The notes under the pieces were generated by a model. The model searched no databases and had not been told where the DNA came from. It worked only from the letters and a program-made list of their open reading frames with translations. Shown piece by piece: positions 2,649 to 48,068 of a stretch of DNA of 64,000 bases. Both the position numbers and the translations under genes were made by a program. The stretch comes from an uncultured Gammaproteobacteria bacterium (GTDB lineage: Bacteria; Pseudomonadota; Gammaproteobacteria; Nitrosococcales; Methylophagaceae). Every line of letters begins with the position of its first letter. Position 1 is the stretch's first letter. The stretch covers positions 1 through 64,000 of the forward strand of contig CAJQOM010000003.1 in the NCBI GenBank assembly GCA_905479985.1. The letters are read 5' to 3'.

Positions 2649-2692
2649 GTGCATGCTGAATTTAAACCTCAGCAACTAGGAATAAGCATGCA
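2649..2692. promoter_or_regulatory. Inverted repeat over the recombinase start
   Basis: GTGCATGCT at 2649-2657 and AGCATGCAC at 2684-2692 form a perfect 9-bp inverted repeat separated by 26 bp. The right arm contains the ATG start codon at 2688. This would suit either an operator or an mRNA hairpin that hides the start codon. Confidence 0.4.
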
Positions 2693-3617
2693 CACACAAA
2701 CACACGATGATTACTTCAAATTAGCTCTATATTTTTTATCTCATAATGTTGAACGGGCTACAGATGACAGAAACGGTGCTTTATTAATTCAGCAAATGTT
2801 GATTAATTGTGCATTCCGATACAGGCCAGCTTATTGGCGCCGGTTGAGATGTGCACTTGTCTACTCCTTCAATTATCTCGGTCAGCCTGAAACTGCTGCT
2901 GTTATTCAGACGAGCGTAAACCCAATTACTATCGCGGGTTCAAAAAATACCTCAAAACCTAAGCAGAAACGAAAGAAACAAGTATCTAAACAAGAACACG
3001 GTTTAATAAAAAGCGCTTTATTAAATAAAATGCAAACAAATCCAATGGACGAATGTTTGTTGGCTGCACTTGATATTGTTTCTATTTTAGGATGCAGGCC
3101 GTCTGAAATGCTGTCGTTAAAGTTAAAACCTAACAGTAATCAGGTGTTTATTCCTAGTGCTAAAAAGACGAGTAATGATCTCAGAGGCTTAGATAGAACT
3201 GTTTTGTTACCCCAGACTGAGTATGACCTTGTTGCTCAAGCTCAACAGACATTGTCTAAACACCGAGATAGTCTTTGCATATCAAAATCAATTCTACAAT
3301 CGAGATTACAACGCAAACTGGCTCGTGTTACCGAGAAATTATGGCCAAAACAAAAGCACCGAATCACTTTTTATACATACCGTCACCTGATGGGAAGCGA
3401 TTTGAAAAGATCAAGCAAGAGCAGAAGAGAAGTTGCGGCCATCATGGGGCATCAGTCAGTCGACAGTGTCGATGTTTACGGCGACAGACGTTGTAGTGGA
3501 CTAATTAGAGACATTAAAGCCACTCAGCAAACTATTGATAATGTGAGGAAGACGGTCTCGAACAAGACAAGTTTCTGGTTCAGGATTAATTCAACAAAAC
3601 GCATTAGGAAACCGTAG
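2688..3617 (+). CDS. Tyrosine recombinase (island-borne)
   Basis: A 309-residue protein from the ATG at 2688, preceded by AGGAA; a GTG at 2649 would add 13 residues. The C-terminal half carries the tyrosine recombinase signature: the first arginine in ILGCRPSEML, a TYRHLMGSDL block matching the H-x-x-R region, and IMGHQSVDSVDVYG with the probable nucleophile tyrosine. The N-terminal half is basic and unlike the usual SAM-like arm domain. It is a second recombinase in an island that already has a tRNA-adjacent integrase, so it may be the remnant of another element or serve a different site. An unusual inverted repeat flanks its start and a large hairpin follows its stop. Confidence 0.65.
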   Translation: MHTQTHDDYFKLALYFLSHNVERATDDRNGALLIQQMLINCAFRYRPAYWRRLRCALVYSFNYLGQPETAAVIQTSVNPITIAGSKNTSKPKQKRKKQVSKQEHGLIKSALLNKMQTNPMDECLLAALDIVSILGCRPSEMLSLKLKPNSNQVFIPSAKKTSNDLRGLDRTVLLPQTEYDLVAQAQQTLSKHRDSLCISKSILQSRLQRKLARVTEKLWPKQKHRITFYTYRHLMGSDLKRSSKSRREVAAIMGHQSVDSVDVYGDRRCSGLIRDIKATQQTIDNVRKTVSNKTSFWFRINSTKRIRKP

Positions 3618-3703
3618 TTTGCTTCGCGGAGCTAAAAATAACGATTTGCGCTGCAGCTCGATTATTTTCCGAGCGTAATGACGCTCCGCAAAAAAGCAAC
3701 GGT
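3611..3703. repeat. Long imperfect inverted repeat after the recombinase
   Basis: The outer arms ACCGT..TGCTT (3611-3624) and AAGCAACGGT (3694-3703) pair, then GCGGAGC (3626-3632) pairs with GCTCCGC (3683-3689). A centre built on GCTGCAGC is flanked by AAAATAACGA and CGATTATTTT. A smaller GAGCG/CGCTC hairpin sits in the right arm. It overlaps the recombinase stop codon. It could be a terminator-like structure or a folded recombination site; I saw no clear GTTRRRY core, so an integron attC is not supported. Confidence 0.45.
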
Positions 3704-3741
3704 ATTAAACCATCTATTTATTTTACTATTAGGAGAAACGC

Positions 3742-3975
3742 ATGTATTCATTAATTATTACAGTCCAATCAATTAGCCTTGTAGGTTCATTGGTTTGTTT
3801 AAACCGGATGAAACAGTATCGTGACGAGGTAGTATCGACTTTCGGTCATGGCGAAGGCTACATTATCCTCAGTTTGATTTGGCCACCTCCCATAATAGAG
3901 CGGTTTTGCATAACTATGCTTTCCGCACAATTGATGGATCTAAGCCTCCAATCAGGAGGTATCAACGATGTCTAA
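3742..3975 (+). CDS. Small hypothetical protein (uncertain)
   Basis: A 77-residue frame with a good ribosome binding site (AGGAGAAACGC before the ATG) and a hydrophobic N-terminal stretch. Its stop overlaps the start region of the AlpA-like gene at 3968. I do not recognise the sequence, and the second half reads less like protein (PPPIIERF, then a run of small hydrophobics). It is kept because of the start signal and the coupled position; it may be spurious. Confidence 0.3.
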   Translation: MYSLIITVQSISLVGSLVCLNRMKQYRDEVVSTFGHGEGYIILSLIWPPPIIERFCITMLSAQLMDLSLQSGGINDV

Positions 3976-4210
3976 TTATCAAAAACCTAATGGTAATATT
4001 CACCTCCTGCCGCGCTTTATCAGATTCCGCGATGCCCCGAATTACCTTGGTATGGACAAAAATCGTTTCAGTAAAGAGGTGAGACCTTCTTTGACCGAAA
4101 TACCGATTGGCAAGCAAGGAAAAGCATACGATAGACTTGAATTAGATGATTGGGCCGATCATTATAAGAAGTGCAACGGGCGCCGCATATCTAACCGTGA
4201 TTGGAGGTAA
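3968..4210 (+). CDS. AlpA/Xis-like HTH regulator
   Basis: An 80-residue protein with a strong ribosome binding site (CAGGAGG). The core RFRDAPNYLGMDKNRF reads as the helix-turn-helix of AlpA/excisionase (MerR-like winged helix) proteins, followed by the wing-like IPIGKQGKAYDRLELDDW typical of the family. Members regulate integrase expression or act as directionality factors. The gene ends 3 bp before the integrase start, which supports a joint xis-int operon. Confidence 0.7.
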   Translation: MSNYQKPNGNIHLLPRFIRFRDAPNYLGMDKNRFSKEVRPSLTEIPIGKQGKAYDRLELDDWADHYKKCNGRRISNRDWR

Positions 4211-4213
4211 GAT

Positions 4214-5302
4214 ATGAGGAAAAATAAAATACCTGGGCTCTTTAAAATTCAGGAAATATGGCACATCGATAAGATGGTCAATGGCAGACGGATAAGCCGA
4301 AGTACAGGCACGAATAATCATATAGAAGCACAACAGGTTTTGGCTCGACTGATAGATGAGGCAAGACAAGCAGCTATTTTTGGTGTTCGTACTAAGCGCA
4401 GGTTTTCGCAAGCTATTGAACGTTACATTGATGAAAACCAACACTTGGCAAGTATTAACGATAATACGGCGCATTTGATGTTGATTATGAGTGTGATTGG
4501 CGATCTCTATTTACATGAAATACATGATGAGAGTGTCCGAGCTTTTATCGATGCCCGAAAAAGGGATGGACGTAAATCAAAGACGGTCAATATTGCCTTA
4601 GCAGCATTGAGGCGTGTCCTGAAATTGGCAACAGGAAAATGGCGGGATGTTAACGGATTAACATGGTTAGAAAGTATGCCAATTATCGAAAATGTAAAGT
4701 GGAATGATGCACGAAAGCCTTTTACATTATCTTATGATGACCAAGCTAAACTGTTTGGCGTTATGCCAGGACATTTGAGAGCGATGTGTTTGTTTAAAGT
4801 CAATACTGGCTGTCGTGAGCAAGAAGTGTGTCAATTAAGATGGGAGTGGGAGTATGAGCTTACCGGAAGCGATGACATTGTATTTATCCTGCCAGAGTGG
4901 CTGACAAAAAACTCTGAGGAACGGATTATTGTTGTCAATCATGAAGCACGAAAGGCAATTGAATCAGTAAGGAAACATAACGCTGATTTTGTTTTTACGT
5001 ATAAAGGTAGCCCTGTGACATCAATCAATAATTCGGCTTGGAAGAATGCGCGTAAAAAGGCTGAGCTTCCGTTAGCTCGTGTACATGATTTAAAGCATAC
5101 CTTTGGTAAGCGCTTACGTGCAGCTGATGTGAATTTTGAAGATAGACAGGATTTACTCGGTCATAAAAATGGCAGTATTACGACTCATTATTCTCAGGCA
5201 GAGATTAGAAACCTAATCGAAGCGAGTAATAAAGTTTGTATGGAGGATAGTGATTCACGAAAAATTCACGAAGCGGTGGTTTTGAAAAGAAAAAAGGGCT
5301 AA
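4214..5302 (+). CDS. Tyrosine integrase adjacent to tRNA-Arg
   Basis: A 362-residue phage-type integrase. An N-terminal arm-binding region contains GRRISRSTGTNNHIEAQ, then a core-binding SAM-like domain, then the catalytic domain: Arg in VNTGCREQEVCQLRW, the second box as VHDLKHTFGKRL (a Lys where most members have Arg in H-x-x-R), LLGHKNGSITTHY with the GH pair and the nucleophile Tyr. The Lys variant occurs in a recognisable subfamily, so it need not mean inactivity. It is coupled to the AlpA-like gene upstream and ends about 40 bp from the 3' end of tRNA-Arg, its likely attachment site. Confidence 0.85.
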   Translation: MRKNKIPGLFKIQEIWHIDKMVNGRRISRSTGTNNHIEAQQVLARLIDEARQAAIFGVRTKRRFSQAIERYIDENQHLASINDNTAHLMLIMSVIGDLYLHEIHDESVRAFIDARKRDGRKSKTVNIALAALRRVLKLATGKWRDVNGLTWLESMPIIENVKWNDARKPFTLSYDDQAKLFGVMPGHLRAMCLFKVNTGCREQEVCQLRWEWEYELTGSDDIVFILPEWLTKNSEERIIVVNHEARKAIESVRKHNADFVFTYKGSPVTSINNSAWKNARKKAELPLARVHDLKHTFGKRLRAADVNFEDRQDLLGHKNGSITTHYSQAEIRNLIEASNKVCMEDSDSRKIHEAVVLKRKKG

Positions 5303-5325
5303 GTGAAATTCACCTAACCCTTTGT
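5296..5325 (+). terminator. Terminator after the integrase
   Basis: GGGCTAAGTGAA pairs with TTCACCTAACCC (one G-T and one mismatch) around a short loop, followed by TTTGTTCT. It lies at the integrase stop codon and just before the convergent tRNA-Arg gene, so it could serve both strands. Confidence 0.55.
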
Positions 5326-5342
5326 TCTATATACCAAATTAA

Positions 5343-5419
5343 TGGTGCGCCCGACACGATTCGAACGTGTGACCGCCTGGTTCGTAGCCAGGTACTCTAT
5401 CCAGCTGAGCTACGGGCGC
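5343..5419 (-). tRNA. tRNA-Arg (anticodon ACG)
   Basis: On the minus strand a 77-nt cloverleaf begins GCGCCCGTAGCTCAG and ends with encoded CCA. The acceptor stem GCGCCCG pairs with CGGGCGC, the anticodon loop is CTACGAA (ACG, read as ICG after deamination) and the T loop is GTTCGAATC. It is the attachment site of the island to the left. The gene lies downstream of csrA and tRNA-Ser(GCU), the common csrA-tRNA order of gammaproteobacteria. Confidence 0.95.
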
Positions 5420-5463
5420 TTAATCAACTAATTATACGGGATTAATAAGCTAATCACAATATT

Positions 5464-5553
5464 TGGCGGAGAGCGAGGGATTCGAACCCTCGATAGGGGT
5501 AAACCTATACGCCCTTAGCAGGGGCGCGCCTTCAGCCACTCGGCCAGCTCTCC
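5464..5553 (-). tRNA. tRNA-Ser (anticodon GCU)
   Basis: A 90-nt minus-strand tRNA with the long variable arm of serine tRNAs. The acceptor stem is GGAGAGC/GCTCTCC, the anticodon loop CTGCTAA (GCT), the T loop GTTCGAATC, and CCA is encoded. It lies between csrA and tRNA-Arg and is probably processed from one transcript with them. Confidence 0.95.
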
Positions 5554-7188: not shown

Positions 7189-9795
7189 TTAATTTTCCAA
7201 CTGTGTGCTAATCCAGTCGTTGACTGAATTAAGTGCGTCTTCTAATTGATCGGGTTGGTTGCCGCCACCTTGCGCCATGTCTGGCCGCCCGCCGCCTTTA
7301 CCACCTACTTGGCTTGCGACATGAGACACTAAGTCGCCGGCTTTTAGCTTATCGGTTGTGTCTTTGGTGATACCGGCAATTAACGTAATTTTATCACCGT
7401 CGATAGCAGATAAAATAATCGCGGCTGGCGCGAGCTTGTTTTTCAGTTGATCGACAGTGTCACGGAGGCTTTTAGTATCAGCACCTTCAAGTTGTGAGGC
7501 TAAGACGTTGATGCCTGCAATGTTGGTTGCTGAACTGGCTAAGTCATTACCAGCGCTACTCGCCAACTTACTTTTAAGAGCTTCGAGTTCTTTTTCTAAT
7601 TGTCGATTATGTTGAACGAGTTGCTGTGTTTTTTCTTCGACATTATCTGGTTTGGCTTTGATGACTGCTGCAACGGCTTTTAGGCTCGATTGCTTTGTAT
7701 CAATATAGTCGAGTGCGCTTTCGCCGGTGACGGCTTCTATGCGACGTACGCCTGATGCAATACCGGCTTCAGAAGTGATCTTTAATAGGCCGATATCACC
7801 GGTACGATTGACATGGGTACCACCACATAACTCGACTGAGAAGTCACTCATGCTTAACACGCGGACTTTGGCATCATATTTTTCACCGAATAAGGCCATT
7901 GCACCAGATGTTTTGGCTTGTTCTAAATCCATTAACTCAGTTTCAACGTCATGATTGAGGCGAATTTGTTGATTGACCATCCGTTCAATGGTGTGAAGTT
8001 GTTGTTCAGTGACTGGTTCAAAATGAGAAAAGTCGAAACGCAAACGTTGTGCATTGACCAAGGACCCTTTTTGAGTGACATGGTCGCCCAGTACTTTTTG
8101 TAGGGCAGCATGGAGTAAATGGGTCGCTGAGTGGTTTAATGCGGTTGCCGCTCGGTTAGCTTGATCAATATTGGCGGTGACTGTGTCGCCAACGCGTAAG
8201 CTGCCATTTTCAAGCAAGCCTATATGGGCAAAGGCTTTACCTTGTTTATGGGTATCGGTGACATTAAAACTGGCATTATCGGAGGTTACCTGACCGATGT
8301 CACCAACTTGACCGCCAGACTCAGCATAGAACGCAGATTGTTCAAGTACCACGATGCCGTGTTGGCCGGCGTGGAGTTGTTCAACTTGTTGGTCATCAAC
8401 TAAAATATGGCTGATTAGACTGGTATTTTGGTGTTGGTCGTAGCCACAGAATTTTGTTTCGCCATCAATGGTGACTTGTTTTGACAGTCCGCCGGAAAAT
8501 TGGTTGGCTGAACGTGCGCGAGTACGCTGGGCTTCCATTTCGCGCTCGAAACCCGCGATGTCGATGGTTAAATGACGTTCACGTGCGATATCAGCTGTTA
8601 AATCAATTGGGAAACCGTAGGTGTCGTAAAGTAAGAAGACAGTTTCTCCGGGAATCTCTTTGTCGGCCATGCTGGCGATAACTTGGTCTAAGATTTTCAG
8701 GCCATTATCTAATGTGTCAGCAAAACGGGCTTCTTCTTGTTTTAAAGCGCGTTCAACATTGGCTTGTGCTTTAGCGAGTTCTGGGAAGGCGTTGCCCATT
8801 TCTTCAACAAGCGGTTTGACGAGCTTATAAAAGAAAGCATCTTTCAGGCCGAGTTGGTGACCATGACGAATCGCACGACGGATAATACGGCGTAAAACAT
8901 AACCGCGACCTTCGTTTGAAGGTTGAACACCATCCGTGATCATAAAGGCACATGAACGAATGTGATCGGCGACGACGCGTAATGAGGTGTGTGTTGGGTC
9001 TTGGGTGCCAGATAGGGCTTGGATTGATTTTATCAGGTGTTGGAATAAGTCAATATCGTAGTTGTTATGCACGCCTTGTAAGATGGCAGCAAGACGTTCT
9101 AATCCCATGCCTGTGTCTACAGATGGTGTCGGTAACGGATTTAATGTGCCATCGCTTGTACGGTCGTACTGCATGAAAACGAGATTCCAGATCTCAATAT
9201 AACGATCACCGTCTTCTTCAGGAGTGCCCGGCGGGCCACCAGCGACATCGGGGCCGTGGTCGTAGAATATTTCAGAACAGGGGCCGCAGGGACCAGTGTC
9301 ACCCATAGACCAAAAATTATCTTTGGCGCCAATCCGAGAAACGCGGCTAGGGTCAACACCCATTTCGTCGATCCAAAGGGTGGCGGTTTCATCATCATCT
9401 TCGTAGACAGTGATCCATAATTTGTCAGCAGGTAAGGCTAATTCAACGGTGAGGAATTCCCAAGCATATTGAATGGCTTCACGTTTGAAGTAATCGCCAA
9501 AGCTAAAGTTACCCAACATTTCAAAAAAAGTATGATGACGCGCGGTGTAGCCGACATTTTCGAGATCATTGTGTTTACCACCAGCGCGAACACAGCGTTG
9601 TGATGTGGCTGCACGAGAATAACTCCGTGTTTCTTGACCTTGGAACAGTTCTTTAAATTGGACCATGCCGGCATTGGTAAAGAGCAGGGTGGGATCATTA
9701 GCCGGGACTAATGGACTGCTAGTGACAATGTCATGGCCTTTTTGCTGGAAAAAATCCAGGAAACGCTGTCTGATATCTGATGAGCTACTTTTCAT
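7189..9795 (-). CDS. alaS: Alanyl-tRNA synthetase
   Basis: An 868-residue protein of normal AlaRS length that charges tRNA-Ala. The order is: class II catalytic core with [10 protein letters not shown] and [13 protein letters not shown]; tRNA recognition domain; editing domain with the zinc-type motifs [11 protein letters not shown] and [12 protein letters not shown]-Ala domain ending [15 protein letters not shown]. It lies between recX and lysC with 1-5 bp spacers, an operon order widespread in gammaproteobacteria. Confidence 0.98.
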
Positions 9796-11860: not shown

Positions 11861-14416
11861 ATGGTCAAAACACAAAATCATACGCCAATGATGCAGCAAT
11901 ATCTGCGTATCAAGGCTGAAAACCCAGGCTATTTACTATTTTATCGTATGGGCGACTTTTATGAGTTGTTCTTTGATGATGCGCATCAAGCCGCAGAATT
12001 ATTGGGTATTACATTAACTGCACGCGGTCGTAGTGATGGTTCGCCGATTCCGATGGCAGGTGTGCCTTATCATGCGGCGGATGGTTATTTAGCGAAACTT
12101 GTGGCGCTGGGTGTGTCGATTGCGATTTGTGAGCAGATTGGTGATCCGGCGACGAGTAAAGGACCGGTTGAACGTGAAGTGGTTAGAATCATTACGCCGG
12201 GGACACTGACCGAAGAAGCCTTATTAGACAGTCGTAATGAAAATTTATTGGTCGCGTTATATCAAGACAAAGGGCGCTATGGTTTATCAACCGCAGAATT
12301 AAGTAGCGGTCGCTTTACGGTCAGTGAATTAGCATCATTGACTGAGTTGCAGGCTGAATTGGCTCGGTTAAATGCAGCTGAAATTCTAGTTGATGAATCT
12401 GAAGTAGATAACTTAGCTGGTTTTGCTAAGACATTACGCTCTTTGCCACCTTGGCATTTTGATTTGGATTTAGCGCGGCGACGATTGTGCGAGCAGTTTA
12501 AAACACAAGATTTGAAAGGCTTTGCCTGCGATGATTTAGATTTAGGTTTAATTGCTGCGGGGTGTTTATTAAACTACGCTCAAGAAACGCATCGTGCTGC
12601 TTTACCGCATTTGCGTGGCATTACGGTTGAACGTTCAAGCGATAGTATTCGAATTGATCCACAATCTCGACGAAATTTAGAATTAGAATTAAACCTAGCC
12701 GGCGGTAAAGACAATACATTACTGTCGGTGTTAGATAAGACAGTGACACCAATGGGTGCGCGACTATGTCGACGTTGGTTATTAAGGCCATTGCGCGATC
12801 AGACTGTTTTAACGCAACGCCAACAATCGATTCAGCAGTTATTGACGTTACAGGGTGTTGAACCTTGCCAACAACATTTAAAACAGTTCGGTGATATTGA
12901 GCGGGCGTTGACGCGGATTGCATTACGTACAGCACGGCCGCGTGATTTTATGCAGCTTCGTAATGCGCTGGCGTTGCTACCCGCACTACATTCAACATTG
13001 GCAGCCTTTGACACGCAGCGGCTAGTCCAACTTGATCGTGAATTGGGGACCTTCACTGAGTTACTCGGTTTATTGCAACGGGCATTGATTGATGAGCCAC
13101 CGGTATTGATTCGTGATGGTGGCGTGATTGCAGCGGGTTATGACGAAGATTTAGATAAGTTACGACATATCCGAGACGAAGCGACGCAGTATTTAACCGA
13201 TTTGGAACACCGTGAGCGTGAACGGACCGGTGTCGCGACGCTAAAAGTCGGCTATAACCGTGTGCATGGTTATTATATTGAGTTAAGTAAAAACCAAACG
13301 ACGATTCCGACCGATTATGTCCGGCGACAGACATTAAAAAATGCGGAACGGTATATCACGCCAGAATTGAAGTCTTTTGAAGAGCAGGTATTAACGGCGA
13401 AAGAGCGCGCCTTGGCTTTGGAAAAGGCATTATATGATGCGTTGTTCGATAAGGTGATGCCGGACTTGGCTGTGTTGCAGGTATCGGCACATGCCTTAGC
13501 GGAATTAGATGTGTTGGTCAATTTGGCTGAGCGGGCTGAGACATTAGATTATGTTGCGCCTAGCTTTTCTGATGAGGCTGGGATTGTTATTGAGCAAGGG
13601 CGTCATCCGGTTGTGGAAGCGTCGACGGAGCAACACTTTTGCCCGAATGATTTGCACTTCTCAAAGCAAGCCAGATTATTATTGATTACCGGCCCGAATA
13701 TGGGGGGTAAATCAACTTATATGCGGCAAGCAGCATTGATTGTGTTGTTGGCACATATCGGTAGTTTTGTGCCGGCCAAGAAAGTGGTGATAGGACCCGT
13801 CGATCAAATTTTTACGCGTATTGGCGCATCAGATGATTTAGCGTCAGGTCGCTCTACTTTTATGGTGGAGATGAGTGAAGCAGCGAATATTCTGAATAAT
13901 GCGACACAGCATAGTCTGGTATTGATGGATGAAATTGGGCGGGGTACCAGTACGTTTGATGGTTTATCGTTAGCTTGGGCGTGTGCTGAGAAATTGGTGC
14001 GAGATATTGGCGCTTATAGCTTATTTGCAACGCATTATTTTGAGTTGACGCAGATTCCTGTCACTTATGATAAAGCAGAAAATGTACATTTAGATGCGAT
14101 TGAACATGGTGATAAGATTGTGTTTTTGCATCAACTGAAACCAGGGCCTGCGAATCAAAGTTATGGTTTGCAAGTCGCGCAGTTAGCTGGTGTGCCTCAG
14201 GATGTGATTAAAGCAGCTAAGGTGAAATTAACCGAGTTAGAAGCAACACGTCAGTACTCGACCGACTTGGTTGAAGTGCAGCAAGCTGATTTATTTAGTG
14301 CTGTGGCTGCACCATCTGCGATAGAACAAGCATTAGCAGAGATTGACCCTAATGATTTGACGCCTAAGCAAGCATTAGATGTGGTGTATCAGTTACAGGC
14401 GTTATTGAAAAAATAA
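11861..14416 (+). CDS. mutS: DNA mismatch repair protein MutS
   Basis: An 851-residue MutS. The start at 11861 places [12 protein letters not shown] a few residues from the N terminus as in E. coli MutS; longer upstream frames run into pncC antisense. Landmarks: mismatch-binding [11 protein letters not shown] (the Phe-x-Glu wedge), Walker [32 protein letters not shown], Walker [30 protein letters not shown]. It recognises mismatches and recruits MutL. Only a weak Shine-Dalgarno sequence precedes the ATG. Confidence 0.97.
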
Positions 14417-40761: not shown

Positions 40762-40860
40762 GCTTTTTGTCTCGATACTCCAGCTAACTACGAAGTATGA
40801 GGGCTAAACCTATTTAATGGTGGGGTTTTGTATTGAAGATCTTGAATAATTTAAACAAAA

Positions 40861-40892
40861 AAGCCCATCATTAAATATAATGATGGGCTTTA
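40861..40892 (-). terminator. Terminator, probably the original one of tRNA-Ser
   Basis: AAGCCCATCATT pairs perfectly with AATGATGGGCTT around a short AT loop. On the minus strand it is followed by TTTTTTGTTT. It lies about 50 bp beyond the displaced tRNA 3' end at 40942, so before the element integrated it would have ended the tRNA-Ser transcript. Confidence 0.7.
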
Positions 40893-40941
40893 TGTTGGAT
40901 TTATAAAGAATGACTGAGCAAGTCATGTTTTAAACCATATA

Positions 40942-40959
40942 TGGCGGAGAGTCAGGGAA
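40942..40959. repeat. att repeat, distal copy (displaced tRNA 3' end)
   Basis: ATGGCGGAGAGTCAGGGA, identical to the 3' end of tRNA-Ser(UGA). Identity stops exactly at both sides (next bases differ), so this is the short core of recombination. Confidence 0.9.
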
Positions 40960-41024
40960 GCTAAGTCAGTAAGGCTCTAAAGCCTTTGTTTTACTGTATA
41001 CGGTTGTTTACAAGTAGTTTTCAC

Positions 41025-41585
41025 TTACAAAGATACTTGCATTATCTTCTTTATTCTAGACACTGTTGAGGGTGCTACATTGTATTGTGTTGCAGTCTTG
41101 CGCACCGATAATCCACCAACTAGTGCGAGTTTGATACCTTCTACGTCTACAGCTTTAGACTGTTTACGCTTGCTGTAAGTACCTTTAGCTTTGGCGATTG
41201 CAATACCTTCTGCTTGTCTCTCATGGATCATCTCACGCTCGAAGGTTGCTACTGCACCCATGATAGAAAGCATGAGCTTCTGGTTCTTGTCATTACTGTC
41301 ATAAGTAATTCCATCCTTAACGAACTTTAGCTTTACTCCAGCCCCATTAATAGTCTCTATTAGCTGTAGAAGGTCTGTCAGGTTGCGTGCTAGCCTTGAG
41401 ATTTCATGCACCAGTATCGTATCACCTGATCTCATTTCAGATACCATCTGCTTTAACTGTGGTCGCTCTGTATCCTTACCTGAACAGTGATCGACAAATT
41501 CCTTATCAAAGCTCAGTCCATCTAGCTGCCTTGCAGTATTCTGGTCAACTGAACTAACGCGCTTGTATGCTAATGTATATGACAT
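41025..41585 (-). CDS. Serine recombinase (resolvase/invertase family)
   Basis: A 186-residue small serine recombinase. The catalytic Ser is in LAYKRVSSVDQNTARQL (residue 11), with LVHEISRLARNLTDL and IMGAVATFEREMIHERQAEGI as the conserved arginine and E-helix blocks. A Hin-type helix-turn-helix ends the protein (VRKTATQYNVAPSTVSRIKK). It may resolve multimers or invert a segment; no inverted target sites were noticed nearby. It is the gene closest to the distal att repeat. Confidence 0.92.
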   Translation of the reverse strand: MSYTLAYKRVSSVDQNTARQLDGLSFDKEFVDHCSGKDTERPQLKQMVSEMRSGDTILVHEISRLARNLTDLLQLIETINGAGVKLKFVKDGITYDSNDKNQKLMLSIMGAVATFEREMIHERQAEGIAIAKAKGTYSKRKQSKAVDVEGIKLALVGGLSVRKTATQYNVAPSTVSRIKKIMQVSL

Positions 41586-41785
41586 TGCTATAACTCCCTT
41601 AGTGTATTCACATGTCTAGAGTTTAATAGCTTACGCCAGCTGATCACGTATTACAAGGGCTTTGCTGTATTCATTTGTTAAATATTAAGGTGTATTGGCA
41701 TGTATACTCGCGGATACACCTGGTTTACAGCATACTAAAGTACTGCTAGTCTTACCGCTGGTGAAAACAAAACAAGGAGTAGTTT

Positions 41786-42112
41786 ATGAAGAGGTCAGTA
41801 TTGATTGTTGGTGTAGCGCTAATGGGTTTGGCCTCTTCGCAGTCATATAGCTACGAGAATATGGGTTACGGTGCAGGCTCATCTTGTGGGTCGTGGACTA
41901 AAGATATAGCAGGAGACAGCGTTCTGCATTATCAGGCTCAGTCGTGGGTGCTTGGTTTTGTGTCTGGGGCTGGGTTTTCTGGTGCGGAGCTTTCTGCTAC
42001 TGCTGATAACGAAGCCTTAATTGCGTTTGTCACTCAGTATTGTCAGCGTAACCCGTTAAATAGTGTAGCAAGAGCAGCTGGAAGGCTTGTGTTAGAGCTT
42101 AAGAAGGAATAG
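41786..42112 (+). CDS. Small exported protein
   Basis: A 108-residue protein with a signal peptide ending SYSY-EN and a good ribosome binding site (CAAGGAG). The mature part has SCGSWTKD, then SWVLGFVSGAGF, then YCQRNPLNSVARAAGRLVLEL. The Cys pair and Gly-rich helix recall a widespread family of small periplasmic proteins (loosely like HdeA/Rap1a-type), whose role is unknown. Island cargo. Confidence 0.7.
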   Translation: MKRSVLIVGVALMGLASSQSYSYENMGYGAGSSCGSWTKDIAGDSVLHYQAQSWVLGFVSGAGFSGAELSATADNEALIAFVTQYCQRNPLNSVARAAGRLVLELKKE

Positions 42113-42427
42113 AAGTCGACAGGGGGGGGTAGGGTTAAAATCTACCAGTAATATAAGTATTACCTGCTCATAAACCCGAAGGTAGGATTCTGGTTTTTAG
42201 AAGAAAACTAACCCAGCTTCAATATATTCACATGCTTTGACTGGACGGAAATGCCCCTCTAAGGTATAACCCCACCCTTAGTCTTTCCCAAGAAACTTAT
42301 AATTCCCATAGTGCTTTACATTTGGCATTGAGTTTGTACGCTCGTGGGCTTGACTAATATTGTGTTACAAAAACCACATGCCCAAAGCACATGCTGGCAT
42401 GGACGAAATAAACTACAGGAGTTTAAG

Positions 42428-42805
42428 ATGAAAAAATTTATAGTCCCTCTGATTGCATTAGGAATTACTGGGTGCGCTACGATTGTTAATGACTCAAACA
42501 TTCCAGTCACTGCAACTTTCTCAGATGGAAGTAATGGCGAGTGTCAATTCCAAAACAAGAGAGGAATATGGACTGCGGATGTACCAGGAATGGTTATGAT
42601 TAGGCGCTCAGATGATTCTTTGATTTTTCGCTGTGAAACAGAAGATGGCAGAAATGCTGTAGGATCAATCACAAGCGAAATTGAAGGCGCTAAGCTTGGT
42701 GCAAGCGTATTATTCTTTGATTTAGGCATTACCGATTCTATCACCGATAAACATAGAACTTACCAAGGCAATATAGTAATCCCTGTTAGAAAGACTGCTA
42801 GTTAA
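42428..42805 (+). CDS. Putative lipoprotein
   Basis: 125 residues from the ATG at 42428, which has CAGGAG upstream; a longer frame from 42344 lacks a start signal. A lipobox GITGC follows a short hydrophobic stretch, so the mature protein would be lipid-anchored. The rest includes ECQFQNKRGIWTADVPG and FRCETEDGRNAVG. Similar small lipoproteins occur in other bacteria without known function. Confidence 0.72.
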   Translation: MKKFIVPLIALGITGCATIVNDSNIPVTATFSDGSNGECQFQNKRGIWTADVPGMVMIRRSDDSLIFRCETEDGRNAVGSITSEIEGAKLGASVLFFDLGITDSITDKHRTYQGNIVIPVRKTAS

Positions 42806-43268
42806 ATTGTCACGCCGACATTAGATGTACTAGAGTTAATTGAACAGGATTCATACTTATTAAATGCTTAACAAGACAATCTCTAATACCTCTAATGCCG
42901 GCTATTTAAAGCCTATATGTACTGACAATATAAGCTCTGCATATAGAAGAAGAATAAGGTTTGCTTTTCTACGATTCACTCCCCATTCACAACTGTCCTA
43001 CCCACCAATTTAAGCTGCCTCAGAAGCCCTCAGAGCCATTCTAAGCGGCTTTTATCTTGAGCTGATCCAATGGTAAGTAAAAAGGGATTAAAGACCCGTA
43101 TGGATCACACAGGATCTCTGATGCGGCCTTGATGCCACAGGGGTAGAAGTATTGTCTATAAACTGTAGTGGATCAGACTTAACCTGACACGTTTGAAAGT
43201 AAGTTCCGATGTGGTCTGACAGTCTGCTTTGTGCTTGGCCTTGGTATACATGACGCCCAATTTTCATC
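42806..43268. other. Gene-free region with a possible decayed frame
   Basis: No complete gene. On the minus strand a 44-codon open stretch at about 43047-43180 reads YRQYFYPCGIKAASEI then DPYGSLIPFYLPLDQL, protein-like in tone but without start or recognisable family. It may be the remnant of an earlier gene. Nothing else of note. Confidence 0.3.
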
Positions 43269-43583
43269 CTATTTTTGATATTTGGACATATCTATTCCAG
43301 CAGCAGTACAGGATTCTATTGTTTTTATCTCGTTTTTTTCTGTTGCTGAATGTGAATATTGATCAAGCCAAAACTTACAGATTTGCAGCTTTTCATTTTG
43401 CTGCTCTTTCTCTGTTCTAGGTATGTGCGGCCCTAGATTTTTGTCATCCTTTAATGCTTCGTAGATTTGAGATTTAAAAGCATTGATTGGAAGTTTCAGA
43501 GCATCTTCTAGTGTTTCGGCATAGCTAGAGCTGCTCATTAACAGCATTGTTACTATTGTAATCACCAACGACTGGATTTTCAT
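43269..43583 (-). CDS. Small exported hypothetical protein
   Basis: 104 residues from the ATG at 43583 (a GTG at 43610 overlaps the upstream gene and is less likely). It has a signal peptide ending SSYA-ET; the mature part is hydrophilic with two cysteines (ICKFWLDQY, IESCTAAGI). No family recognised. It follows the next exported-protein gene on the same strand, so the two probably form a pair. Confidence 0.65.
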   Translation of the reverse strand: MKIQSLVITIVTMLLMSSSSYAETLEDALKLPINAFKSQIYEALKDDKNLGPHIPRTEKEQQNEKLQICKFWLDQYSHSATEKNEIKTIESCTAAGIDMSKYQK

Positions 43584-43602
43584 ACCAATGTGTATTCCTT
43601 GT

Positions 43603-44136
43603 TTATTCACTTTGCACCAAGTGTGGTGCTAATTCTCGCCAAGCATCTACATACATTTGTTGCCCTTCAGCATTTTCATTACAAATATCTAGTGTTTTAG
43701 CGAGCTTACCGAGCCAGTCATCTTGTCCTTTTTTATCCTCAGCCTGCTCTAGTAGGGCTAAAATTGCTGTTTCTTGGATATCTGGAAGAGATTCTACTTG
43801 GAGTTGCCCATATTCCCACAGAGACGTAAGTTCTTTTGATGATATTTCATGGTGTGATTTTAACGCTATGGCCATCAATATTGAAAGTTTAGAACCGTTG
43901 GCATGCTGATGTAACTGCTTTGAAGTAGCGGGCTTATCTTTTGCGTACATTTGACTGGTAATCTCATAGGTTGCAGCACAGGTAGCCCAAGCTTCGGCTT
44001 CCCTCTTGACATCCTTAATTAGATTGAAGGGGCTTGATCCTTTAATAAAGGAGTCTTGATTATCTGCTTTTGTTGCTGGAGACAACAAGGTAAAAGAAAT
44101 TGTGAAAAATATAATGCATAATTTTAGAGTCTTCAT
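43603..44136 (-). CDS. Exported hypothetical protein
   Basis: A 177-residue protein with a signal peptide ending TKA-DN. The mature part is helical with cysteines at AWATCAATYEI and TLDICNENAEG. It has no recognised domain. The gene is followed 19 bp later by the gene for another small exported protein; both are element cargo and could act together in the periplasm. Confidence 0.68.
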   Translation of the reverse strand: MKTLKLCIIFFTISFTLLSPATKADNQDSFIKGSSPFNLIKDVKREAEAWATCAATYEITSQMYAKDKPATSKQLHQHANGSKLSILMAIALKSHHEISSKELTSLWEYGQLQVESLPDIQETAILALLEQAEDKKGQDDWLGKLAKTLDICNENAEGQQMYVDAWRELAPHLVQSE

Positions 44137-44279
44137 TACCTTCCTTTGTAATTACTAGTTTTCTTAAGAAGAATACCCATTGTAGCTATCCATTAAATTA
44201 TTATCAGAGTTTGAAAATATTGAGTTATTTTCCAATTTTTTGAATGTGTGGGGGCATGTTGAGGCTATTGTTTAGTAAT

Positions 44280-44882
44280 CTAGTAAGTAGTGCAATTCAC
44301 TGTATTACCGTGACCAGTGCAACTTGTCTGGGTAGGCATATTTGCTCTCTGAGCTGCTCGTTTTTCTTGCATGCCCTTTGCAAATGCAGCCCAGCCCTCA
44401 TCAGCCTTTTGTTGTTCGACTTGAGCTATAGCGTTCATTTGATCCGACCACCCATTTCTTAAAGTATGAAAGGCCTGAGAGGCTTCTTGGATGGTTATGT
44501 TATCCATTAGAACCGAAGCTCTGACGTCATTAACAGTGTTCCAATATTTAAGTGTTATACCTGCTCTAACGTGCTTACCGATCTTTGTGAATCCATTTAC
44601 AATTGCATCTTTGCAAACCTCTTGCTCAGTCCAGTAGGCTGTGAAAATCTTCTTTTCTTCTTCTGTTAGCTTGCTATTACTGGGCTCAAGTCTTTCTGCA
44701 AGCGTTGGGTGCGTGGGGCCAAAGTGATACTTGGCTTCATATTCACCAACAGGCGCATGTAAATTCCTGACATTGTCGATACAGGTTAAGGTGTCTTGGT
44801 GAACTTTTGTTACTTGGGCTGCACTACAGCCCGCTAATAAAGCCACGCCAATAGCAAGAGTAGTTAACTTTGAAATTGTCAT
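44280..44882 (-). CDS. Putative lipoprotein
   Basis: A 200-residue protein with lipobox LLAGC after a short hydrophobic signal. The mature part is helical, with a KYHFGPTHPTLAERL stretch and a C-terminal SCTGHGNTVNCTTY, a Cys-rich ending seen in other small lipoproteins. No function can be assigned. Island cargo, same strand as the two exported proteins before it. Confidence 0.68.
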   Translation of the reverse strand: MTISKLTTLAIGVALLAGCSAAQVTKVHQDTLTCIDNVRNLHAPVGEYEAKYHFGPTHPTLAERLEPSNSKLTEEEKKIFTAYWTEQEVCKDAIVNGFTKIGKHVRAGITLKYWNTVNDVRASVLMDNITIQEASQAFHTLRNGWSDQMNAIAQVEQQKADEGWAAFAKGMQEKRAAQRANMPTQTSCTGHGNTVNCTTY

Positions 44883-45384
44883 ATTTAATTTCTTCCCTGA
44901 ATTTATATGCCTATTATTGTGTATAGAATCCTATCCTCAATTTAATAGTTTAGCAACAATAACCATACTAAATGTAAGTCTATATGGTCACCGACCTGCT
45001 CTTTTTCTCTTGAAGATTGGGATTGCTGCAACGGGACTAAGTGTAAGGGTATCTCGCCTAAGCCATAAGTCTTTGCTAGGGATTGCGTGTATGACAGTTA
45101 ATAACTGTGGGCTTGTCGATTAAGGGCTATGGAGGCGATTTAAAGCCGTTAATATATTTATAATGTAGGGTAGGCAGGGTTAAGTGCTTAAACGCTATTA
45201 TACGAGCTCTCAGAAGCTATCATGCTATCTGATGCGGTAGGGTGACGGTATGAAATAAAGTCTAACAGATAATGATAACATAAGAAGATAAATATGGAAA
45301 CCCCCGCTATTGGGGAAGCCCACAAGTAATACTATATATTATTATAATACTTATATATATTAATAATTATATATACCACTATAA
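44883..45384. other. Gene-free, AT-rich region beside the polymerase gene
   Basis: About 500 bp without a supported gene. The part at 45333-45384 is almost pure A/T (runs of TATATA and AATAATTA), and a short hairpin lies at 45300-45315. AT-rich DNA next to a polymerase-like gene could be an origin unwinding region; that is only a suggestion. Confidence 0.4.
45300..45315 (-). terminator. Weak terminator after the polymerase-like gene
   Basis: CCCC and GGGG pair around a short loop (CCCCGCTATTGGGG); on the minus strand it is followed by GTTTCCATATTT. It lies about 70 bp past the stop of the polymerase-like gene. Confidence 0.35.
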
Positions 45385-46596
45385 TTACTTAAACATATGA
45401 CCTTGTAATAATCCTTTATGTTTAGCTTGAACGATGAATGAATCATAAACAGTTAAGACTGGTATATTTAATTTAGTTAGATCATTAATGATACCCATTA
45501 CCAGTTCAGATTCAATAAACTGAACGTTTAAACCTGTCTGCTTATTTTTAAGGAATAAGTCACTTATGGTTTTATGCTTTACCTGATATGCATCAACAAT
45601 ATTTTTAACTTTGAATTGTTTGATTGTAGTTTTATATGCAGAAACCTTCTCTTGATTAGATTCTTCTTGCTCATAGTATTTTTTAAGCGCCATACCAAGA
45701 CCTCTGACAGATGTAGTAAAGAAGATCATTGTAGACATTTGCTTAACAAGGCTTCTAGGTATCGTTTTGTTAGCAATTTCTAATTTGTATGGATCACCGT
45801 CTTGATATATTTCACCAGTTTGATGACGGTATAAAGCATTTATTGAACTGGCTTGAAAATCTAGTTCTATTGTTTCCTCACCATCAATTGTAAGACGTTT
45901 TCTCATTTCTCCTGATAGGTCACACCATGATGAATGGATTCTGCCACCATATTTAAATTCAATATCTTGATCTTCAAGGTGAGTAAATTTTCTTGTGATT
46001 ACTTCACCCTCGTAGTGATATACATCGTCATAGCCTTGATGGTCAGGAACAGATATTTCATGCAGATTAATTAGCTTATTGTAGGTTTCCATATCTTGAC
46101 GCATAGCATCAGTGGTACTGGTGTCGTTATAGTTTACAAATGCTTTGGTTTTCTGTTCTCTGAGGATAATAGTTTCAGTTTGAGCATTTGGGTTATGGAT
46201 TTCAGTTTTAAAATGACCCATCTGATCATTGACATACCAATGATGTTCGATAAAGGTCTTTTCTAATTTATTAGTACGCTTAATGACAGTTCTTTTCTTT
46301 TCCCCGTCTTTTATTGAGCCAATTGTTTGGTTTATAAAGCCGTACTCGTTTAGTTTATCAAGGACGGTTCTTAGGGAACTGGGCCCTAGCTTATTTGGGT
46401 TATACCTAGTGCCACCAAAGCTTTGTTTTGCTCTGGGGACAAGCAACTCACCATCATAATATAAGTTTAGAAGCAGGATTCTAAGTGCTTTGTATTGCTC
46501 TTTTCGTATTAGTTGTAGATCTGAACTTAAATCTTCAACCGTCTTGGAAACAATTCCTGAATTACTCATTATTGATGGTTTAAACTTTTTCATCAT
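45385..46596 (-). CDS. T7 RNAP/PolA-superfamily polymerase-like protein
   Basis: A 403-residue protein with ribosome binding site AAGGATG. Residues 28-95 look like a winged helix. The C-terminal half carries the three palm motifs of single-subunit RNA polymerases and family A DNA polymerases: motif A ELDFQASSINALY (Asp 246), motif B RSLVKQMSTMIFF with Arg 281, Lys 285, Phe 293 and a Gly six further on, matching the spacing of T7 RNAP, and motif C VYDSFIV (Asp 385), preceded by NVQFIESELV. There are no other known domains. It lies 24 bp after the integrase gene, in one operon. A replicase or primase-like role for the element is an inference. Confidence 0.65.
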   Translation of the reverse strand: MMKKFKPSIMSNSGIVSKTVEDLSSDLQLIRKEQYKALRILLLNLYYDGELLVPRAKQSFGGTRYNPNKLGPSSLRTVLDKLNEYGFINQTIGSIKDGEKKRTVIKRTNKLEKTFIEHHWYVNDQMGHFKTEIHNPNAQTETIILREQKTKAFVNYNDTSTTDAMRQDMETYNKLINLHEISVPDHQGYDDVYHYEGEVITRKFTHLEDQDIEFKYGGRIHSSWCDLSGEMRKRLTIDGEETIELDFQASSINALYRHQTGEIYQDGDPYKLEIANKTIPRSLVKQMSTMIFFTTSVRGLGMALKKYYEQEESNQEKVSAYKTTIKQFKVKNIVDAYQVKHKTISDLFLKNKQTGLNVQFIESELVMGIINDLTKLNIPVLTVYDSFIVQAKHKGLLQGHMFK

Positions 46597-46620
46597 TCAT
46601 CCTTGTATGTGGAAATGCAG

Positions 46621-47883
46621 TTAATCTAGTTCTGACTGAAATGTAATGCTGTCTATGGCTCGTAACTTATCTTCAAATGATGAACCAGAAGAATACAACC
46701 CATAAGTAATAGATTGTTTTTCATGTCCTAATAAGTCAGCTGCAACTCCTTCAGCTATGGCAGCTTGTTCTAATTTTGTAGCTACTGTTTTGCGTATTGA
46801 GTGAAAAACCTTGTCTCGACCAAATCCTAGCTTCGTTTTAAGTCGTCCAAAGGTTTTAGAATAGGCATCACTTCTAGTTCCCGTTTCATTATTTGAGCCA
46901 TACGGGAAAATGTAACCTGTATAATTTAATCGTTGGAGTAGGATGGCTTCAATCTCCTTGCTTATGGGAATAGAGCGTTCTCCAGCTTTTGTTTTTGCTC
47001 TAGTGATATTAATAAGATACCTACCCTGATGAGGTTTAATATCTTCTGGCTTTAATTGCATCAACTCTTCTATTCTGCATCCCGTATACATAGCCAGTAG
47101 TATTAGGACTTTAAGCTCTTTATCTTTGACGTTATCAAGGATCAGCCTTAACTCCTCATCCTCAAAGTGCGTTCTGATTTCGCCTACTTTTAATTGTTTC
47201 TCACTGGGTAGTTGAGCAGCATTAAACGTGTCTTGAATATTTAGATAACCTTTTCTTCTGAGCCACTCGACATATAGCCTCGCCGAGTCCAGATAGCCCT
47301 TTAAAGTCTTCCTTGTTGGAGGCTTTTCTAGTTTAAGGTAGCTGTCTATCCACCACTGAATATTGCCTGTTGTGAGTGTTTTAGCGCTCAGATATTCAAA
47401 GTTTGGAAGGAATTGGGTTTCAATACGACTTATACGTTGACTTATAGTCTTGCTTTTTAGGTGGCTTAGAGTCTTTTTGTACTGGTTTACGTAAAAAGAT
47501 GATTCTACAACAGTACCATCTTGCCTTGCCATCGCGTACCTAGCTAGAAACTCAGGGTTTGGTTTATCATTACTAGCCCAACTATTATTTACCCATTCAG
47601 TAACCTTATCGAACATCTCATCAGTGAGTGAGTCCTCTTCAAAAATCTTCTGGATAGTTTTATCTGTTGTGGGTTCATTGGGCGCTGCTAGTATTCCTTT
47701 GGCTTTTTCTATTTCAGATAGCCACTTACTAATAACAGGTATAGCCAGCTTTTCCGCTTGCGATTGCGTGACATCGCCTAAACTTTTTATGTACTGCTTT
47801 TTTATAGGGAGGTAAGGAAGTAGCTTAGGGTTTGGGACGATACGAACCCAATAATAACCATCTTTGAAAGAGACATATTTCAT
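46621..47883 (-). CDS. Tyrosine integrase of the tRNA-Ser element
   Basis: A 420-residue integrase. The N-terminal arm domain has KDGYYWVRIVPNPKLLPYLP; the catalytic domain has YTGCRIEELMQLKPEDI, HSIRKTVATKLEQAA (His-x-x-Arg) and LLGHEKQSITYGLYSSG with the nucleophile Tyr. All catalytic residues are present. The gene begins about 95 bp from the tRNA 3' end and reads away from it, so transcription from the tRNA promoter could feed it. The polymerase-like gene follows. Confidence 0.93.
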   Translation of the reverse strand: MKYVSFKDGYYWVRIVPNPKLLPYLPIKKQYIKSLGDVTQSQAEKLAIPVISKWLSEIEKAKGILAAPNEPTTDKTIQKIFEEDSLTDEMFDKVTEWVNNSWASNDKPNPEFLARYAMARQDGTVVESSFYVNQYKKTLSHLKSKTISQRISRIETQFLPNFEYLSAKTLTTGNIQWWIDSYLKLEKPPTRKTLKGYLDSARLYVEWLRRKGYLNIQDTFNAAQLPSEKQLKVGEIRTHFEDEELRLILDNVKDKELKVLILLAMYTGCRIEELMQLKPEDIKPHQGRYLINITRAKTKAGERSIPISKEIEAILLQRLNYTGYIFPYGSNNETGTRSDAYSKTFGRLKTKLGFGRDKVFHSIRKTVATKLEQAAIAEGVAADLLGHEKQSITYGLYSSGSSFEDKLRAIDSITFQSELD

Positions 47884-47928
47884 TGCAAGATAACCTTATA
47901 TAGTCTACTTACAATGTTACTTACAAAA

Positions 47929-47956
47929 AAGGGTTTAGACAACAGTCCAAACCCTT
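47929..47956 (-). terminator. Replacement terminator for tRNA-Ser, brought by the element
   Basis: AAGGGTTTAGAC pairs with GTCCAAACCCTT (11 of 12) around a 4-base loop, and on the minus strand it is followed by a TTTTTTGT run. It lies inside the element 23 bp past the tRNA 3' end, in the same relative place as the displaced terminator at 40861. Confidence 0.75.
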
Positions 47957-47977
47957 GGTATTACTTACTTCTATATA

Positions 47978-47995
47978 ATGGCGGAGAGTCAGGGA
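47978..47995. repeat. att repeat, tRNA-proximal copy
   Basis: ATGGCGGAGAGTCAGGGA, forming the CCA end, acceptor strand and part of the T arm of tRNA-Ser(UGA). Identical to the copy at 40942-40959. Confidence 0.9.
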
Positions 47996-48068
47996 TTCGA
48001 ACCCTGGGTAGGGATAAACCTACGCTGGTTTTCAAGACCAGTACATTCGGCCGCTCTGTCAACTCTCC
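47979..48068 (-). tRNA. tRNA-Ser (anticodon UGA)
   Basis: A 90-nt minus-strand serine tRNA with long variable arm. The acceptor stem is GGAGAGT/ACTCTCC, the anticodon loop CTTGAAA (TGA), the T loop GTTCGAATC, and CCA is encoded. It is the integration site of the 7-kb element, which restored its 3' end on entry. Confidence 0.96.

Follow-up and report, generated by a model that had tools for sequence, protein, structure and literature searches.

What does a protein resembling the palm of a single-subunit polymerase do when it is encoded directly behind an integrase? The first-pass annotation of this locus had proposed an element-specific replicase, primase or transcriptase that might define an undescribed family of small integrative elements. 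Here we ask whether the locus is a mobile element, what the protein is, whether the arrangement recurs in other genomes, and which function best fits the evidence.

A bounded island at a tRNA-Ser gene

The polymerase-like gene lies on the minus strand of the window (the whole 64,000-nucleotide stretch of DNA that was analyzed) at 45385..46596, where 403 codons encode 403 amino acids from an ATG start, and it is present as a single copy in its own genome. It begins 24 nt downstream of the stop codon of a tyrosine integrase gene on the same strand (46621..47883; 420 aa; PF00589, E 6.2e-18; phrog_1, E 7e-40), so the first reading of this open reading frame, with an integrase immediately upstream, held. 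The start of the integrase gene and the 3' end of tRNA-Ser(tga) (47979..48068, minus strand; ARAGORN) are 95 nt apart; this tRNA is the target gene and is kept intact. An integrase adjoining the 3' end of a tRNA was our criterion for an island at an RNA gene, and the window fulfils it.

Two 18-nt direct repeats of ATGGCGGAGAGTCAGGGA, identical to the tRNA 3' end, lie 7,037 bp apart: the distal att copy at 40941..40958 and the proximal copy, overlapping the 3' end of tRNA-Ser, at 47978..47995. The corresponding empty site was found at base level in two relatives (G010 and G016), with a 17-nt overlap: in both, sequence 85–87% identical to window positions 40855-40958 runs straight into the tRNA and the right flank. 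The polymerase–integrase pair sits in a precisely bounded 7.04-kb integrative element (40941..47995; 7,037 bp plus one att copy), while excision of this element is inferred from the repeats and the empty site.

Between the repeats are the integrase, the polymerase, a serine recombinase of the resolvase/invertase type (41025..41585, minus strand; 186 aa; PF00239, E 2.7e-35), and about five small ORFs. On the minus strand, these are an ORF of 200 aa with a lipoprotein-like N-terminus (44280..44882; no family above threshold), one of 177 aa with a signal-peptide-like N-terminus (43603..44136; no family), and one of 113 aa with a GTG start (43269..43610; no family above threshold). On the plus strand, a lipoprotein-like ORF with a probable start at an internal MKKFIVPLIALGITGCA (42344..42805) accompanies a 108-aa ORF with a signal-peptide-like N-terminus (41786..42112). 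No known family was matched by this cargo (41786-44882), several members of which are signal-peptide- or lipoprotein-like, and the scanned ORFs of the element (tiny ORFs left out) included no capsid-redirecting or packaging gene and no AlpA.

Related genomes and the rest of the window offer two further observations. A short integrase remnant is kept at the same tRNA-Ser site in genome G022 (L156), and the site has therefore been reused. Elsewhere in the window (2649-5553), two more integrase-like genes on the plus strand (2649-3617 and 4214-5302) lie by tRNA-Arg and tRNA-Ser(gct), and this region is likely another island.

Identity and predicted fold of the polymerase-like protein

The protein belongs to a family that has already been named. 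It matches PHROG 4756, of unknown function (E 7e-43, residues 58-402), as do all 69 members of our family alignment (A3), and this family is divPolA2, published in phages in 2024 (Yutin et al., PMC11348598); its representative AUR84708 (MG592441) is match H49 here. That study describes divPolA2 as an additional palm protein of lytic phages and leaves its role open, with a repair polymerase or an RNA polymerase suggested by the authors; the terms integrase, mobile, and bacterial genomes do not occur in its text. Within the literature searched, the name divPolA2 is used by that one study only (preprint and journal version), and no paper found used the PHROG number. The phage proteins resemble those described here in having a palm without an exonuclease, an N-terminal domain of neither PolA nor RNAP type, and DNA polymerases and mitochondrial RNA polymerases as nearest folds. 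They differ in that they were described only in phages already having a replicase, whereas the copies here are in integrative elements; these element copies are mostly separated from the phage copies in the tree, and a winged-helix-like N-terminus is suggested for them.

Searches by conventional means recovered little of this relationship. The window protein sequence retrieved nothing usable from Pfam, NCBIfam, PADLOC, or PDB; it had no match to PF00476 (DNA_pol_A) at E<=1, a family also absent among those matched by the 69 members, and neither it nor the 69 members matched PF00940 (single-subunit RNA polymerase). No Pfam or NCBIfam family covers the A3 members. Against PDB sequences, the A3 profile gave no match, and a profile of the mixed alignment (A1) matched DNA polymerase I only (best E 0.016). 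As a single query, the window protein found no relatives in the genome collection or the viral contigs. Because A1 was too divergent for search patterns, a five-member cellular alignment (A2) was used instead: one peptide pattern derived from it yielded 268 relatives in a collection of 84,980 species, of which 80 were kept, and A2 recovered eight relatives in viral contigs. Tblastn added 43 phage records, most of them from phages of Vibrio, Aeromonas, and Pseudoalteromonas (those listed measure 89-146 kb), as well as a single plasmid, Paracoccus pBEN.

Structure prediction places the protein among polymerases. The AlphaFold2 models of the window protein, built with A3 (mean pLDDT 90.3, pTM 0.86), and of a relative from Xanthobacter (L030; pLDDT 90.0, pTM 0.90) were both confident. 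For the window model, the best Foldseek match was the apicoplast DNA polymerase (E 4.5e-4), followed by mitochondrial RNA polymerases, and the best 50 VIA-align rows were all family-A DNA polymerases or mitochondrial RNA polymerases (best match Z 10.9, rmsd 3.8 A over 224 residues, range 138-403). The Xanthobacter model gave 80 Foldseek matches at E<=1e-3, the best 50 all family-A DNA polymerases, and a VIA-align Z of 11.5 over 244 residues. A search of BFVD returned eleven phage proteins of 400-450 aa (E<5e-18). We consider it very likely, on the strength of the predicted model, that residues ~138-403 (45388..46185, minus strand; Z 10.9 to the apicoplast polymerase, supported by hhalign) form the palm and fingers of a family-A polymerase.

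About 137 residues precede the palm region; they include no 3'-5' exonuclease domain, and the N-terminal domain is unlike the PolA thumb. Residues ~30-118 (46243..46509, minus strand) may form a winged-helix-like domain, a possibility predicted by the model that rests only on topology (H32-48 E50-53 H72-84 E88-91 E103-107) and on weak Foldseek matches to MarR-type winged helices (E 0.04-0.1).

Alignment by hhalign of the family with PolA sequences, taken from relatives of the window and from phages, brought motifs A, B, and C into register, pairing GGRFYGGWWQ with TGRL..QNIP and HDSFIV with HDELVF at D882; the pairwise E-values were 9e-4 and 2e-4, yet the probabilities were only 23% and 48%. 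In this register, D246 of motif A (45859..45861), R281 and K285 of motif B (45742..45756), and D385 of motif C (45442..45444; all minus strand) align with PolA D705, R754, K758, and D882. Among the 69 aligned homologues, D246 is invariant (69/69), R281, K285, and D385 are each conserved in 68, and G218-R219 and R232 are also invariant.

The fold and the motif order (GR..Q, D705, R754/K758, D882) are thus shared with family-A DNA polymerases (PF00476), but the family has no Pfam match and no exonuclease, and four PolA residues are replaced in most members: E710 by H (59/69), F762 by L (51/69), Y766, at R+12, by N (64/69), and E883 by S (65/69), which makes motif C HDS rather than HDE. Sugar selection is governed by E710 in Klenow and by Y639 in T7 RNAP. 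Since the sugar-gate residues of PolA are replaced, the choice of substrate cannot be read from PolA, and use of ribonucleotides is plausible given the loss of this gate, although this is inferred from sequence alone. The window copy is itself unusual: S occupies the E710 position, F stands at R+12, the motif C Asp is preceded by Y, and GRIH takes the place of the GRFY of relatives. It departs from near-invariant positions (H384Y, N293F, F220I, Y221H, and D362E), and its C-terminus is roughly 20 residues or more shorter than in relatives.

These results allow most claims of the first-pass annotation about the protein to be judged. Its residue numbers held (D246 in ELDF, R281, K285, F293 at K+8, G299, and D385 in VYDSF), as did the palm assignment (50 of the 50 best VIA-align rows, with the hhalign motif register) and the lack of an exonuclease or typical promoter-binding domain. 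Of the motif B spacing it had described, the Arg/Lys part held across the family, while the aromatic at R+12 and the 'Gly 6 later' belong to this copy only: the family has no conserved Gly at 299. The proposed closeness of the two aspartates (246 and 385) agrees with their alignment to the adjacent PolA residues D705 and D882, the only form in which it was tested, and remains an inference. Support for the suggested winged helix is weak, the two Pfam families it had named (PF00940 and PF00476) went unmatched by the window protein, and the idea of an undescribed family failed for the protein.

Recurrence of integrase–divPolA2 islands

Records holding relatives span Pseudomonadota, Thermodesulfobacteriota, Chloroflexota, Bacillota, Bacteroidota, Nitrospirota, and Fidelibacterota, and many of the hosts are marine bacteria; this spread should be read with caution, since many records are metagenome bins, in which mobile elements are easily misassigned. 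In a quick maximum-likelihood tree, nine of ten phage copies fell together with one viral contig (SH-aLRT 88), opposite the chromosomal copies, and the window copy had a long branch of uncertain placement.

An exact repeat of at least 14 nt of tRNA 3'-end sequence brackets the polymerase at 34 of the 56 tRNA-bearing loci (the window included), compared with 26 of 1,900 random segments (1.4%); at 25 nt, the counts were 20/56 and 9/1,900. The 34 att-bounded elements measure 2.4-15 kb (median 8.9 kb), and tRNAs of ten amino acids serve as sites; strains of Loktanella and Sulfitobacter are among the hosts of such elements. Of 48 genome loci flanked by 5 kb on each side, 33 had an integrase within 5 kb and 15 had none, and in 22 an integrase abutted a tRNA. 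The gap between polymerase and integrase was 10 nt in pBEN and 57 nt in L046. The guess of an integrative element family therefore held (att repeats, empty sites, and 34 bounded elements), and the integrase–polymerase pair was indeed found beside tRNA genes in other genomes.

Clustering of the element genes recovered the polymerase in 34/34 elements, the integrase in 31/34, a serine recombinase in 9/34, and every other family in four at most. The polymerase count is so by construction, the loci having been selected for holding it; besides the polymerase, the integrase is the only gene common to most elements. Resolvases, Sel1, radical SAM, ArdC, and a single Cas9-Cas1-Cas2 set are among the families displayed for 115 cargo ORFs. 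The 25 most frequent cargo families from each of three libraries contained no helicase, primase, relaxase, capsid, or terminase; only these 25 per library were shown, so rarer families are not excluded.

Sites other than tRNA genes are also used. In L025, which comes from the bacterial family of the window, the 3' end of the RNase P RNA gene (rnpB) is perfectly repeated over 117 nt, and the two copies bracket an integrase and a truncated divPolA2 in a 7.6-kb element (L025:3754-11693); in L026, from the same bacterial family, a divPolA2 remnant (12130-13026) lies 60 nt beyond rnpB. Taken together, the family is widespread in bacterial chromosomes in the same integrase-island setting. We believe this to be new, though earlier description of some of the islands, e.g., as VEIMEs or tycheposons, is not excluded.

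Individual loci carry features of separate interest. A c-di-GMP-I riboswitch scores above the gathering threshold at L026:15810-15891. In Desulfovibrio sp. UBA6079 (L057:9767-14145), ORFs fitting Cas9, Cas1, and Cas2 are carried by a 12.1-kb att-bounded divPolA2 element at tRNA-Leu. On Paracoccus pBEN (L015:1558-3381 and 7356-9215), a broken second divPolA2 and integrase-like fragments lie ~4 kb from the intact pair, which suggests tandem insertion at one site.

Possible functions of divPolA2

The present evidence does not decide among replicase, primase, and transcriptase, the three roles put forward at the outset. On balance, and by a narrow margin, we favor divPolA2 as a replication enzyme, either an initiator polymerase or a primase, that would copy the excised circle; its activity, and the excision, origin, and transfer of the element, are all inferred. 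This role is inferred because the polymerase is the only replication-type gene seen, is common to unlike elements, and sits close behind the integrase, and because a likely DNA-binding domain is joined to the polymerase domain. In this view, excision by the integrase would take place at the 18-bp repeat of tRNA-Ser (an inference from the repeats and the empty site), the winged-helix domain would recognize a site on the excised circle, and the palm would then make a primer or first strand there for host replication to extend. A primer of RNA or mixed type is plausible, the ribonucleotide-excluding residues of PolA being replaced, and the serine recombinase, in about a quarter of elements, would putatively resolve multimers.

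Phages bear on the type of replication role. All nine phages examined with a family member also encode a PF00476-type PolA (seven over the cut-off), and phage KASIA additionally encodes a primase, a helicase, and an RNA polymerase. As an additional palm enzyme alongside a complete PolA, divPolA2 fits a priming or otherwise specialized role better than bulk replication. Given the separate PolA in these nine phages, it is not obvious that the protein acts there purely as a replicase or primase, a judgment again made from sequence alone. That divPolA2 is the phages' only primase or replicase can be ruled out, since the nine phages have another PolA and KASIA also a primase.

Alternatively, divPolA2 could be a single-subunit RNA polymerase that transcribes the genes of the element, as T7 RNAP does for T7, with the winged helix recognizing promoters. 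Consistent with this, mitochondrial RNA polymerases rank second among the fold matches, motif C has the HDS form of single-subunit RNAPs (S in 65/69) and not HDE, the steric-gate Glu of PolA is absent, and the authors of the divPolA2 study raised the same option (PMC11348598). However, the nearest folds are DNA polymerases, 64 of the 69 members have N in place of the motif B Tyr common to PolA and T7 RNAP, KASIA also encodes a separate RNAP, and the elements are so small that there is little to transcribe. Compared with T7-type and mitochondrial enzymes (PF00940), the family is also half the size, without a Pfam match or a T7-like N-terminal promoter-binding domain. We regard a transcriptase as unlikely.

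It also appears unlikely that divPolA2 is defense or phage-interaction cargo, such as a polymerase triggered by phage infection, and not a replication protein. Several elements do hold defense genes (Cas9-Cas1-Cas2 in L057, RmrA/RmrT, and viperin-like matches), and lytic phages keep the gene in variable neighborhoods in addition to their own replicase. Against this, PADLOC gave no match for the window protein, and divPolA2 accompanies the integrase across unlike elements, a pattern of core function.

A third possibility concerns only the window copy, which might be a decaying relic whose frame is open but whose enzyme is inactive. Its departures from near-invariant positions, missing C-terminal end, and long branch are compatible with decay, and truncated copies exist in related genomes (L003 and L004). 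Nevertheless, 403 open codons, the four catalytic residues, and the invariant GR and R232 are kept, the model is confident, and the integrase frame and att repeats are intact; we therefore doubt this explanation.

Least probable is that these islands are satellites of phages, similar to VEIMEs, PICMI, or tycheposons, and are replicated by divPolA2 only with a helper phage. Their size and plan of integrase plus replication gene are like those of PICMI (6.1 kb: int, alpA, and prim; PMC10803314); PICMI and other small satellites share a length of about 6-9 kb, a tyrosine integrase, one replication-type gene, and short cargo. Many hosts are also marine bacteria, and homologues occur in lytic phages. 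However, PICMI relies on a primase and AlpA and has its integration site beside fis, whereas the sites here are tRNA or rnpB genes; no capsid, terminase, or AlpA was among the families displayed for the 115 cargo ORFs, and no helper phage or packaging is known for divPolA2 elements. Though very unlikely in this strict form, a satellite reading is compatible with a replication role and does not exclude it. Pipolins (PMC7385651) are likewise integrative elements encoding their own DNA polymerase, but theirs is of family B; a pipolin-like PolB element is not favored here, since the fold matches are to family A, from which the island polymerase is derived.

A bolder version of the replication reading, which we put forward tentatively and would not yet wager on, is that integrase plus divPolA2 marks a class of minimal integrative elements that is both widespread and undescribed, with members of about 5-15 kb inserted at the 3' ends of tRNA genes or rnpB. 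Such elements would copy themselves with a PolA-derived initiator polymerase, the winged helix serving as origin binder and the palm, with its altered sugar-gate residues, as primer maker, and would carry defense and other cargo.

For the family, these findings move divPolA2, so far recognized only as an unexplained additional gene of lytic phages, to the position of main gene besides the integrase in many dissimilar small islands, and give it a cellular role that can be tested. It also offers a marker gene with which to look for a hidden class of mobile elements, some with defense systems and one with a Cas9 set. The protein itself is a candidate for a compact enzyme that might initiate DNA or RNA synthesis unaided, and the pairing of integrase and polymerase suggests that mobile DNA has a little-known means of copying itself.
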